Source: Pseudomonas sp. MAG733B (GTDB lineage: Bacteria > Pseudomonadota > Gammaproteobacteria > Pseudomonadales > Pseudomonadaceae). From it: a DNA stretch of 64,000 bases. Below the pieces are notes generated by a model. The model saw only the letters and a list, made by a program, of their open reading frames with translations, was not told the origin of the DNA and did no database searches. Each line of letters starts with the position of its first letter. The stretch's first letter is position 1. This document shows positions 12,918-44,896 of the stretch, in pieces. The position numbers and the translations under genes were made by a program. Location: NCBI RefSeq assembly GCF_036884845.1, contig NZ_CP145732.1, forward strand, positions 5,022,001 through 5,086,000, given 5' to 3'.

Positions 12918-13463
12918 TCAGCCGCGATCCTTACCCCGCAACATGCTGTCCAGCACATCATCCCGACGTACCCAGGCATGAAACAACGCCGCCGCCAAAT
13001 GCAGCAGCACGGTCAAAAACAGCAAGTACGCCAGATACCCGTGGGCCTTGCGCAGGAACGCAAACACCTGAGCGTTGGCCGCAACGATCGATGGTAATTG
13101 CAGCGAGCTGCTGAGCATCACCGGTTCGCCGGACGCCGAAATCATCGCCCAACCCAGCAACGGCAAAACCAGCATCAAGACGTACAGCAACACATGCGAG
13201 GCTTTGGCCGCGAGTGCTTGCCAACCCGGCAGGTCGGCGGGTAATGGAGGCTGCGTGGTGGAAAAACGCACCACAAGACGCACGATTACCAACAGCAGAA
13301 TCGCAACGCCCAAGGGTTTGTGCAGGTGGATCAGCATTTCATGTCGCTCAGACACCGAAGCGACCATGCCCGCGCCGATAAACAACATGGCGATGATCAT
13401 CAGCGCCATCAGCCAGTGCAGCAAGCGCGCCAGAGGAGCGAAGTGGTTGGGTTGAGTGCTCAT
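12918..13463 (-). CDS. Cytochrome b561-family membrane protein
   Basis: A 181-residue protein with four hydrophobic helices and the histidines expected to ligate two b hemes: LLHW near residue 15, IHLHKPLG near 48, ASHVLLY near 97 and KAHGYLAY plus LLHLAAALFH towards the end. It probably passes electrons across the inner membrane to a periplasmic acceptor. Its start overlaps the stop of the catalase-like gene (ATGA), so the two are co-translated and probably form a functional pair, with b561 supplying electrons to the peroxidase. That pairing is inferred from context. Confidence 0.88.
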   Translation of the reverse strand: MSTQPNHFAPLARLLHWLMALMIIAMLFIGAGMVASVSERHEMLIHLHKPLGVAILLLVIVRLVVRFSTTQPPLPADLPGWQALAAKASHVLLYVLMLVLPLLGWAMISASGEPVMLSSSLQLPSIVAANAQVFAFLRKAHGYLAYLLFLTVLLHLAAALFHAWVRRDDVLDSMLRGKDRG

Positions 13464-14545
13464 TGCTGGGCCTCCTGTTTGGCGGCGGGCAATTGGCTGA
13501 CTTCGCTGGTGCGACGCAGGTAGGACGTGGCGTAACCAGCTGAACGAGCGGCGAGCAACGGGTCGTCGGAACCTTCGATACCGGCGGGCAATACCAAGGG
13601 GTCGTAGTTGATATCACGGCACTCGCCGCTGAGTTGCGGCTGGGTGCTTTCAAGCACCAGCGTGCCGGCGTTCAACACTTTGCGCCCTTCGGGCCAGGCT
13701 TTGCTGGCGTCGTTCACTGGGTCGCCGGGGTTAGCCAACGTGATGTTCAACTGCCAACGCAGCGGCCCAGCGGCGATCCGTTGCACCAGATCCTTCTCCA
13801 AAAAATCGCTGCCTTCCGGCGCCGTGGCACCCGGTGCGTCCTGAGCCACCGGCACCATGCTCCAGCGCACCGCTTGCCGCTGCCCGGCGGCGTTCACCAG
13901 ATAGAACGCGTTGACGCTGTTGTAGGTTTCGGTCACGTAGCTGGCCGAAGGCCTGGCCGTCTTGACCCACGTCAGAAACGGCACGGCTTCCGGGTGCGCT
14001 GCGAAGAATGCCGGCACAGCCTTGGGGTCCGGCTTGCCGGTAGCCGGGTCCGGCGATTGCGCCTGCTGGAATTGATAGAACGCCTCGGGCGTGCCCACCG
14101 GGAACACCGGCATGCTGTTCATCCCGGTGCGCCATTGCTGGCCGTTGGCCTGGGTGAAACGCAATGCCAGGCTGCGGATCGGCACGGCATTGTCCGGGGC
14201 ATAAGGATTGCCGGCCGGCAGGGCCAATCGTCCGACCACCGGGGTGCGCGGCTCATTGAACACTTGCGCCGTGGAATAACTGCGCGCCTCGCCGCTGCTC
14301 TCGAAATGGCCGATCACGCACACGCCTTTGGAGTGATTGCGACGGAATCCGGGATGCACGCCGTTGTTGGTTTCCAGCACATTGATCAGTTTTTTCGGCG
14401 TCAGGCGCTGTGGGTCAAGCGCGCCGTTGACGTAGGCAAACGCCCCGGCCACGGCGGCGACGACCACGGCAATGCCGGCCAGACGCAATGTCAGGCTCGC
14501 GGCACTCAACGGTGGCCGGGTTGGCGGTGATGATCGATCTACCAT
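13460..14545 (-). CDS. Catalase-family (SrpA-like) peroxidase, membrane-anchored or exported
   Basis: A 361-residue mini-catalase. After a basic, Pro-rich start there is a hydrophobic segment (LAGIAVVVAAVAGAFAYVNG, residues 25-45) that should export or anchor it. The distal heme His lies in GVHPGFRRNHSKGVCVIG near residue 80. The proximal heme Tyr lies in AARSAGYATSYLRR near residue 340. The length is about two-thirds of a monofunctional catalase, as in SrpA-type proteins that act mainly as peroxidases. ATG 14545 was preferred to ATG 14563, which has no ribosome site. It heads an operon with cytochrome b561 and is divergent from an ECF sigma gene, with matching promoter motifs on both sides. 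Confidence 0.88.
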   Translation of the reverse strand: MVDRSSPPTRPPLSAASLTLRLAGIAVVVAAVAGAFAYVNGALDPQRLTPKKLINVLETNNGVHPGFRRNHSKGVCVIGHFESSGEARSYSTAQVFNEPRTPVVGRLALPAGNPYAPDNAVPIRSLALRFTQANGQQWRTGMNSMPVFPVGTPEAFYQFQQAQSPDPATGKPDPKAVPAFFAAHPEAVPFLTWVKTARPSASYVTETYNSVNAFYLVNAAGQRQAVRWSMVPVAQDAPGATAPEGSDFLEKDLVQRIAAGPLRWQLNITLANPGDPVNDASKAWPEGRKVLNAGTLVLESTQPQLSGECRDINYDPLVLPAGIEGSDDPLLAARSAGYATSYLRRTSEVSQLPAAKQEAQQ

Positions 14546-14589: not shown

Positions 14590-14614
14590 GACGAACCGCG
14601 CAGCGGTTTATTCC
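14590..14614 (-). promoter_or_regulatory. Predicted ECF-sigma promoter of the catalase/b561 operon
   Basis: On the minus strand GGAATAAA (14614-14607), a 13-base spacer, then CGTC (14593-14590). The spacing and both boxes match the motif at 14643-14667 in front of the sigma gene itself. ECF promoters typically have a GGAA-type -35 and a CGTC-type -10. Confidence 0.65.
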
Positions 14615-14642
14615 CTCGCGCGGTATTTATTTTTTCGGGCGT

Positions 14643-14667
14643 GGAATAACCTCCAGTCCCGGGCGTC
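14643..14667 (+). promoter_or_regulatory. Predicted autoregulated ECF-sigma promoter of the sigma/anti-sigma operon
   Basis: GGAATAAC (14643-14650), a 13-base spacer, then CGTC (14664-14667), located 37 bases before the sigma start. It mirrors the opposite-strand motif at 14590-14614, which suggests that the encoded sigma factor reads both promoters. Confidence 0.65.
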
Positions 14668-14703
14668 TTCCTAGTCCACAGCGTAGTGACTAGTCAGTAC
14701 TTC

Positions 14704-15210
14704 ATGAACGATATCGACGAACAACTGAGAGAAATCATTCCCAGATTGCGGCGATTTGCCGTGTCGTTGACGCGCAACTCCAGCAGCGCCGACGACCTGG
14801 TTCAAGCCAGCCTGGAGCGTGCGCTGTCGAGTTGGGGCGCCAAGCGAGCCGACGGTGATTTGCGCGCCTGGCTGTTTTCGATTCTCTATCGACAGTTTCT
14901 CGATGCGCATCGACGTTCCCGGCGCTATGCACGCATGCTCGAATTTTTCACCGGGCGCGACGATGCGCAGCCGTCGGTGGAGCGCACCGTCATCGCGCAA
15001 TCGACCCTCAACGCCTTCGACCGACTGCCCACCGAACAGCGCGCTCTGCTGCTTTGGGTGTCGGTCGAAGGCCTGAGTTATAAAGAGGTCGCCGAGATTC
15101 TCGACGTACCCACCGGCACCGTGATGTCCCGCCTGTCCCGGGCCCGCCAGGCCCTGCGCCAACTCAGCGATGGCGAAATCACCCGCCCAGCCCTGCGGAG
15201 ACTCAAATGA
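14704..15210 (+). CDS. ECF-family RNA polymerase sigma factor
   Basis: A 168-residue sigma70-like factor holding only regions 2 and 4. Region 2 runs through RRFAVSLTRNSSSADDLVQA to LFSILYRQFLDAHRRSRR. Region 4 includes LPTEQRALLLWVSVEGLSYK and the helix-turn-helix EVAEILDVPTGTVMSRLSRA. ATG 14704 was preferred over a GTG six codons upstream. Its stop overlaps the ATG of the next gene, an anti-sigma factor. Context (divergent catalase-like peroxidase and cytochrome b561) points to a role in oxidative stress. The inducing signal is unknown. Confidence 0.9.
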   Translation: MNDIDEQLREIIPRLRRFAVSLTRNSSSADDLVQASLERALSSWGAKRADGDLRAWLFSILYRQFLDAHRRSRRYARMLEFFTGRDDAQPSVERTVIAQSTLNAFDRLPTEQRALLLWVSVEGLSYKEVAEILDVPTGTVMSRLSRARQALRQLSDGEITRPALRRLK

Positions 15211-15959
15211 TCAGCATGCCCCCAAGCGAGCGCGACCTGCACGCGTACGTCGACCATCAACTCAACGAAGACGACCGACGTCTGGTGGAGACTTTTCTTG
15301 CAAGTAATTCGGACGTTTCCGCACAGGTCCGCGCCTGGCAGCAGGACGCCCAGCAACTGCGCGCGGCGCTCAGCGGCGCGTTGCAGCAAACCGCCAACCC
15401 GGCGCTTGATCCGGCGATGATTCGTCAGCGCCTCAAACGCCAATCGCGGCGACACCTGGCCAGCGCCGCGGTGTTGCTGATTGCGGTCAGCGTCGGCGGC
15501 TTCGGCGGCTGGCAAGCTCGGCAAATGACCTTCATCAGCGCTCAGCTACCGATGACCGATGCCCTGCAAGCCTATCGCCTGATTGCCCAGCAAGAAATAT
15601 TGCCGGCCGACTACAAGGCCAGTGACGACGGCGACATGCAGGGCTGGCTCGACCGTTATTTCACCCTGGCCAATCGCCTGCCCGATCTTGCCGACGCCGG
15701 GTTCAAACCGGTGAGCGGACGCTTGCTCAGCACCGAACAAGGGCCGGCGGCAATGGTGGTCTACAAGAATCAAGGCGGGCAAAAGATCAGCTTCTACGTG
15801 CGCCCGCCGGGGCCGAAAAACTATCTGCTGCCGAGAGGCAGCCGCAGCGATGGCGGTTTGCAGGCCGAGTATTGGTCCGGGGGTGGCTACAACTATGCGA
15901 TGGTCAGCCCGACCGATACGCCGGCGGCGCAGATGCTGAGGCAGACTCTGCAATTCTGA
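15207..15959 (+). CDS. Anti-sigma factor, transmembrane (RskA/zinc-finger-like N-terminus)
   Basis: A 250-residue protein with an N-terminal cytoplasmic helical region (MPPSERDLHAYVDHQLNEDD) of the kind that clamps ECF sigma factors. One transmembrane helix follows near residues 92-110 (LASAAVLLIAVSVGGFGGW), then a periplasmic domain of about 140 residues. The HxxxCxxC zinc motif of ZAS domains is absent, so it may be a zinc-free variant. It overlaps the sigma gene by four bases (ATGA). The periplasmic domain is presumably the sensor, perhaps for peroxide or redox state, which is inference. Confidence 0.8.
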   Translation: MISMPPSERDLHAYVDHQLNEDDRRLVETFLASNSDVSAQVRAWQQDAQQLRAALSGALQQTANPALDPAMIRQRLKRQSRRHLASAAVLLIAVSVGGFGGWQARQMTFISAQLPMTDALQAYRLIAQQEILPADYKASDDGDMQGWLDRYFTLANRLPDLADAGFKPVSGRLLSTEQGPAAMVVYKNQGGQKISFYVRPPGPKNYLLPRGSRSDGGLQAEYWSGGGYNYAMVSPTDTPAAQMLRQTLQF

Positions 15960-44347: not shown

Positions 44348-44896
44348 ATGCCGTGGAAAAATTCCGCCTCGCGCTACAGCACCGTATCGATCGCGTTGCA
44401 TTGGTTGATGCTGGTCTTGCTGGCGCTGGTTTATGCCTGTATCGAGCTCCGCGGGATCTTTCCCAAGGGCAGTGGCGGGCGAACACTGATCGTTGAATCG
44501 CACTTCATGCTCGGCCTGACGGTATTCGTACTGGTCTGGGTGCGGTTGTTCGCTCGCAGCCTCGGCCCGGCACCGCAGATCTTCCCGGCCTCGCCGCACT
44601 GGCAGATAACACTGGCCAGGCTGATGCACTGGGCGCTGTACATTTTCATGATCGCCATGCCATTGCTGGGTTGGCTGGTCACCAGCGCCAAAGGCAATCA
44701 AGTGATGTTCTACGGCCTCGACTTGCCGCTGCTGATGGCCGAGAACAAGGAACTGGCCAAAGAGCTTCAGGGCTGGCACGTCCTGGGCGGCACCATCGGC
44801 TACTGGCTGATCGGCCTGCATGCCGTGGCCGGGCTGTATCACCACTATGTGGTGGGCGATAACACCTTGTTGCGGATGATGCCCAAGCGCACTTGA
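44348..44896 (+). CDS. Cytochrome b561-family membrane protein
   Basis: A 182-residue four-helix membrane protein with heme-ligand histidines in SIALHWLMLVLLALVY, VESHFMLGLT, RLMHWALYIFM and IGLHAVAGLYHHYV. ATG 44348 has TGAGGAA eight bases upstream. Unlike the b561 at 12918 it is not linked to a catalase gene. It may be a superoxide or quinol oxidoreductase of the CybB type, or serve an unlinked periplasmic enzyme; context does not decide. Confidence 0.87.
   Translation: MPWKNSASRYSTVSIALHWLMLVLLALVYACIELRGIFPKGSGGRTLIVESHFMLGLTVFVLVWVRLFARSLGPAPQIFPASPHWQITLARLMHWALYIFMIAMPLLGWLVTSAKGNQVMFYGLDLPLLMAENKELAKELQGWHVLGGTIGYWLIGLHAVAGLYHHYVVGDNTLLRMMPKRT

Follow-up and report, generated by a model that had tools for sequence, protein, structure and literature searches.

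A mirrored motif between divergent sigma factor and catalase genes

We analyzed a 64,000-nucleotide stretch of the genome of Pseudomonas sp. MAG733B (contig NZ_CP145732.1, positions 5,022,001 to 5,086,000; hereafter the window), in which the gene for an extracytoplasmic function (ECF) sigma factor of 168 aa (14704..15210, forward strand) diverges from that of a catalase-fold peroxidase of 361 aa (13460..14545, reverse strand). Behind the sigma factor gene lies that of a 250-aa membrane anti-sigma factor (15207..15959, forward strand), and behind the catalase gene that of a cytochrome b561 of 181 aa (12918..13463, reverse strand); in both pairs the frames overlap by 4 bases, and hence each side looks like an operon. 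The gap between the start codons at 14545 (-) and 14704 (+) is 158 bases long, as stated in an earlier note on this DNA, which had also described a mirrored motif in it, GGAATAA-N14-CGTC. Both copies are indeed exact, one on each strand, at 14590-14614 (-) and 14643-14667 (+), and both have a 14-base spacer. By chance the motif is expected in the window with a mean of 0.01 matches, and with spacers of 13-15 allowed two copies were found in 0 of 100 shuffles.

The forward copy is the predicted promoter of the sigma/anti-sigma operon, with a -35 box GGAATAA at 14643-14649, a -10 box CGTC at 14664-14667 and a predicted start at about 14672-14675. Its mirror image, with the -35 box at 14614-14608, the -10 box at 14593-14590 and a predicted start at about 14585-14582, would serve the catalase/b561 operon. 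From the coordinates, the end of the -10 box lies 36 bases from the ATG of the sigma factor gene and 44 bases from that of the catalase gene. ECF sigma factors typically have promoters of their own with a GGAA-type -35 and a CGT-type -10 element, a pattern which the predicted promoter of the window sigma factor fits in both sequence and conservation. The -35 boxes flank an A/T tract, TATTTATTTTTTC (14624..14636), which might act as an UP element common to both promoters; its core TTTATTT is kept in all 13 close relatives aligned, and a comparable tract is present in 30 of the 37 gaps having at least 20 bases between the boxes.

Among 198 genomes sampled from the family, 67 have the sigma factor at E <= 1e-30, and all 67 loci were read. 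The forward motif precedes the sigma factor gene in every one of them, and in 59 the catalase and b561 genes diverge from it; all 59 of these gaps contain both motifs (in each case with at most one mismatch and a spacer of 14 or 15). The earlier note had proposed a check of motif conservation in orthologous gaps, and loss of the motifs with the gene pairs retained was seen in none of the 59. Shuffled gaps gave 13 matches in 2360 strand tests, and both motifs together in 0 of 1180. At the spacer-14 sites every position of GGAATA and CGTC carries 2.0 bits, against 0.1-1.3 bits in the spacer, the values for the boxes being biased upward because the sites were chosen with the motif itself, two mismatches permitted. 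Across the gaps the -35 boxes lie 4 to 38 bases apart, and therefore we are dealing with two promoters and not with a single palindrome of constant geometry. The occurrence of both motifs in all catalase-bearing gaps supports the predicted single ECF regulon with two promoters, one for the sigma and anti-sigma factors and the other for the catalase and b561. The motif pair is very probably the output of the neighboring sigma factor, and the dependence of both predicted promoters on it appears highly probable. An autoregulated ECF sigma factor with a divergent target is a known kind of system.

Loci with other gene orders provide natural controls for this interpretation. A phylum-wide sample of 398 genomes included 47 that were positive for the catalase at E <= 1e-30; 30 loci were examined, to which the counts apply, as stretches of about 4 kb each, so that absence of a sigma factor means that none lies inside the stretch. 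The motif precedes the catalase gene at all 13 loci with a divergent sigma factor, at none of the 3 with a sigma factor upstream on the same strand and at none of the 14 without one. The presence of the motif within 300 bases upstream of the sigma factor gene tracks sigma identity: it was found in 89/89 cases at an identity of at least 60%, 15/20 at 50-60%, 6/35 at 45-50% and 3/25 below that. Recognition of the motifs by a different sigma factor or regulator, for instance OxyR in the case of the catalase, with the neighboring sigma factor being incidental, is very improbable in the light of this tracking and of the restriction of the motif before catalase to loci with a divergent sigma factor (13/13 versus 0/17), even though, in the accessible part of the source, the srpA transcript of Xanthomonas oryzae falls in an oxyR mutant (PMC5101826), srpA being a putative ortholog of the window catalase.

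In P. antarctica (L326) and P. cyclaminis (L327) a block of about 4 kb separates the sigma factor and catalase genes and each gene retains a motif; in the former species the block encodes an AMP-binding enzyme, a protein with no Pfam match and an enoyl-CoA hydratase. In P. japonica (L328/L329) the catalase gene is on a different contig and is preceded by GGAATAA-N15-CGTC, and the sigma factor gene also retains a motif. The catalase has been displaced and not lost in all three species. Further afield, the mirrored arrangement recurs within one mismatch in loci of Burkholderia, Lysobacter, Frateuria, Dyella, Xanthomonas and Gluconobacter, the last with a spacer of 15. Erwinia oleae has the order catalase-b561-sigma-anti-sigma and a single near-motif, GGAATAA-N14-CGTT, in front of the catalase gene. 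In Methylobacterium (L110) and two other loci (L166 and L168) the motif precedes the sigma factor gene, and the catalase gene follows downstream on the same strand after those of the sigma and anti-sigma factors; an additional reverse motif with a similar spacer occurs about 200 bases upstream in these three loci. The Herbaspirillum genome with locus L105 has no close relative of the catalase (best match 2e-22).

Several observations weigh against the proposed dependence of both promoters on the neighboring sigma factor. The counts are not independent, as the genomes in the samples are related to each other, some of them being present in two collections, and 9 of the 13 catalase loci with a divergent sigma factor come from the window's own family. 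Among the eight family loci without the catalase, a reverse site within one mismatch is still present in seven and absent in L065. A Pandoraea locus (L136) retains the catalase with weak motifs, and at L104 and L179 no motif within one mismatch precedes the sigma factor gene. Furthermore, a reversed control motif is as frequent genome-wide as the real one (see below), and therefore the motif alone is no predictor of promoters.

The sigma/anti-sigma pair and its signal

The sigma factor has region 2 (PF04542) and region 4 (PF08281), with no region 3 family among its matches, and most likely belongs to a PrtI-like lineage that can be approached through the literature on Burkholderia cenocepacia. 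BCAL3478 of this organism has been named EcfB and described as PrtI-like (PMC2194791, in part), and, like the window sigma factor, it is divergent from a putative catalase gene, BCAL3477, according to the available portion of PMC2830190. Three Burkholderia species compared here have the same arrangement with a sigma identity of 60-63%. We infer via BCAL3478 that the sigma/anti-sigma pair is a likely member of the PrtI/PrtR lineage. PrtI/PrtR of P. fluorescens LS107d2 and WH6 resemble the window pair in consisting of an ECF sigma factor followed by a transmembrane anti-sigma factor. They differ in being known for effects on protease and on formylaminooxyvinylglycine (FVG) and germination-arrest factor (GAF), and the accessible parts of the sources report no promoter motif or catalase/b561 target for them. 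As far as these sources extend, WH6 lost its germination-arrest activity when Tn5 was inserted in the Asp139 codon of PrtR (PMC2997014), and PrtI has been described as a negative regulator of FVG (PMC8067088). Residue 139 of the anti-sigma factor is Asp in 4 of 13 named relatives (L081, L082, L084 and L090) and Ser in the window protein.

On the basis of structural models and fold comparison we identify the 250-aa product as the membrane anti-sigma factor of the sigma operon, with putative sigma binding; it has a helical N-terminal domain, one long helix (69-110 in the model) expected to cross the membrane, and a predicted periplasmic domain. It matched no Pfam family and scored 29.5 bits against NF052375, below the cut-off of 100; zf-HC2 matched weakly in 8 of 54 relatives. 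Zinc-dependent anti-sigma factors (ZAS) carry an HxxxCxxC zinc motif. The window protein has no cysteine and so does not fit a redox anti-sigma of this type, and among its orthologs 61 of 67 likewise have none and 6 have one. In the RpoE-ChrR system of Rhodobacter, ChrR is a zinc-binding protein, one half of which is a cupin; the window anti-sigma factor differs in lacking cysteine and having a single long helix leading to the periplasmic domain. In the models this domain appears to resemble RseB/MucB in fold only: the profile match gave an hhalign probability of 4%, and PF17188, with a single matching gene per genome in 13 of 16 genomes, never matched at the anti-sigma factor, and homology to RseB was accordingly set aside. 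Where RseA/RseB and MucA/MucB are two partners, the window has one polypeptide. Neisseria SigE and Haemophilus RpoE2 (ECF group 13) resemble the lineage in that their regulons for oxidative damage are small and include msr genes, an MsrB being encoded beside a related sigma factor at L073, but their anti-sigma factors are small ZAS proteins (PMC7907618, in part).

In the mechanism that we envisage, the membrane anti-sigma factor would hold the sigma factor until an envelope signal releases it. The released sigma factor would bind GGAATAA-N14-CGTC on both strands and transcribe its own operon together with the anti-sigma factor, providing positive feedback with a built-in shut-off, as well as the catalase-b561 operon. 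The anchored catalase-fold enzyme, its domain presumably in the periplasm, would then remove peroxide, with b561 probably passing on electrons from quinol.

The nature of the signal is less certain. In quantitative PCR after 60 min of H2O2, BCAL3477 was up 23.1-fold and BCAL3478 16.6-fold, both late, and the authors interpret the catalase as indirectly triggered (PMC2830190, accessible part); the late co-induction is consistent with one sigma factor driving both operons. The earlier note had spoken of peroxide defence, for which the signal is unproven, given this late response and the lack of cysteine in the anti-sigma factor. There is an even chance that the actual signal is envelope damage or temperature, with the enzymes handling peroxides of lipids or proteins that arise secondarily. 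Against this reading, all data are indirect and the target genes belong to oxidative stress, including those of the relative with MsrB.

Reach of the proposed regulon

The 6.65 Mb genome of MAG733B contains 6 exact matches to the motif with spacers of 13-15, as against 4 for the reversed control. Four lie outside the locus, their surrounding genes being assigned by eye. Of these, L002 and L006, inside long frames, and L005, across a start codon, were set aside as further promoters, and L001 (spacer 13), which is overlapped by short frames and precedes a 186-aa frame by about 220 bases, is a doubtful candidate promoter. The form GGAATAR-N14-CGTC matched 84 times in 22 genomes including MAG733B, 41 of them at this locus, with 84 matches for the reversed control, and 25 times in 7 further genomes, 12 of them at the locus, with 21 for the control. 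Thus, no excess was detected outside the locus in either set (43 versus 84 and 13 versus 21). The genome scan suggested by the earlier note is by itself uninformative as a regulon finder, since the reversed control is about as frequent, and it left L001 as the sole, doubtful, site elsewhere in this genome. With no enrichment outside the locus, the core regulon appears to consist of two operons. In another genome (G127, C1 3253460-3276078) we observed four identical motif matches at intervals of about 7.5 kb, which probably reflect a tandem repeat.

Relatives lacking the catalase at the locus have other genes behind the motif. These encode a SnoaL-like protein (PF12680, L212; by eye a similar protein in L061), a combination of DUF305, beta-propeller and PF03640 proteins at L068-L071 (Pfam run on L069), and, at L073, the MsrB (PF01641) mentioned above. 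In G011, which also has the catalase module, a secreted-repeat gene of family PF03640 is a possible third target, with an exact motif 92 bases upstream (L219 574-598 / L223). This was the only exact motif among 18 PF03640 loci read of 30, some representing the same gene twice. The PF03640 gene of MAG733B was rejected as a third target, as it has no motif within two mismatches in 400 bases. The description of the module as self-contained hence stands for MAG733B at the level of exact motifs, L001 being doubtful, and does not extend to these relatives with their alternative cargo. It is unlikely that weaker matches to the motif, or matches with other spacers, extend the regulon in MAG733B beyond two operons: the G011 site, L001 and a second exact site in G042, which precedes what by eye is a beta-propeller-type frame, speak for such an extension, and the lack of excess outside the locus speaks against it, in counts that do not cover one-mismatch sites.

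The catalase-fold enzyme and cytochrome b561

The catalase-fold protein (PF00199, E 1.3e-29) has an N-terminal membrane anchor, as read from its sequence. The open frame can be extended to 14563, but by eye the start at 14545 is preceded by CTGGAG, which resembles a ribosome site. Its His71, Asn143, Arg334 and Tyr338 align with His74, Asn147, Arg353 and Tyr357 of bovine catalase and are invariant in 10 aligned sequences. With the distal His/Asn and the proximal Arg...Tyr retained, the protein is by sequence a member of the heme catalase superfamily, and its earlier designation as a catalase-like peroxidase appears apt. The best alignment is with 3e4w (E 2e-34), listed as uncharacterized, which we take to be a mycobacterial catalase-related protein, followed by full catalases. 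The window protein shares the sequence family and active-site residues with these proteins, but differs by its membrane anchor and b561 partner.

The b561 gene (PF01292, E 1.6e-31; E. coli CybB, 5oc0, E 1.7e-16) is directly behind the catalase gene at all 30 catalase loci examined, with or without a sigma factor, which argues for a joint function. The superoxide oxidase CybB, in the portion of PMC11869295 available, has a cluster of R30, R35, R38, R108 and K134 and a quinone site of H87, H151, H158 and D164. We compared 66 usable b561 proteins from 117 loci (L037-L153), L007-L036 being excluded as the gene is cut off in them. The quinone-site residues His87, His151, His158 and Asp164, along with His13, are kept in all 66. 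R30 is replaced by V, A or I and R108 by G, A or S throughout; R35 is kept as R in 1/66 and R38 in 0/66, in a loop where the alignment is uncertain, and K134 is replaced by R in 65/66. The window b561 agrees with the CybB superoxide cluster at 1 of 5 positions, as a Lys-to-Arg change.

Retention of the quinone site without the superoxide cluster favors electron exchange with quinone on one side while no superoxide is collected on the other, and hence the proposed supply to the catalase-fold enzyme. The earlier designation of b561 as electron donor is plausible in this respect, with the transfer itself still inferential, and we advance donation to the catalase-fold enzyme as a tentative proposal, slightly more doubtful than not. 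The alternative that b561 is a superoxide oxidase feeding the quinone pool beside the catalase draws on the conserved quinone site and on CybB being the sole solved relative found by sequence; it is quite unlikely in view of the substitutions in the cluster and of a more CybB-like b561 elsewhere in the window. LcoA/BcnA, in the part of PMC9113575 accessible, is likewise a b561 with a secreted antioxidant partner, the partner there being a lipocalin and here the catalase-fold enzyme.

For the PrtI-like ECF lineage, whose targets are unclear, these results provide a promoter motif, a regulon of small size and loci at which nature has separated the genes, and the conserved catalase-b561 pair may be a quinol-fed peroxidase. 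In a limited search, with subscription journals and the 2021 ECF reclassification beyond its reach, no description of the motif, the regulon or the link between the PrtI lineage and catalase-b561 was found among the literature matches listed. A broader conjecture, on which we would place less weight still, joins a two-part membrane quinol peroxidase, in which b561 feeds an anchored catalase-fold periplasmic peroxidase, with a PrtI/PrtR-type pair and motif that form a portable cassette. If so, its cargo would be exchangeable, with catalase-b561, SnoaL-like, DUF305/beta-propeller/PF03640 and MsrB genes swapped between lineages, and therefore the protease and FVG effects of PrtI/PrtR would be secondary.

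MAG733B has seven PF01292 matches, including the window b561. Most of the CybB cluster is likewise missing from three of the others, L252, L255 and L258 (L256 and L257 did not enter the comparison), and therefore absence of the cluster is common in b561 proteins and not special to this locus. A second b561 in the window (44372-44884, forward strand) has Arg, Lys, Arg, Lys and Gln at the five cluster positions and, from its sequence, looks like the better candidate for a superoxide oxidase.
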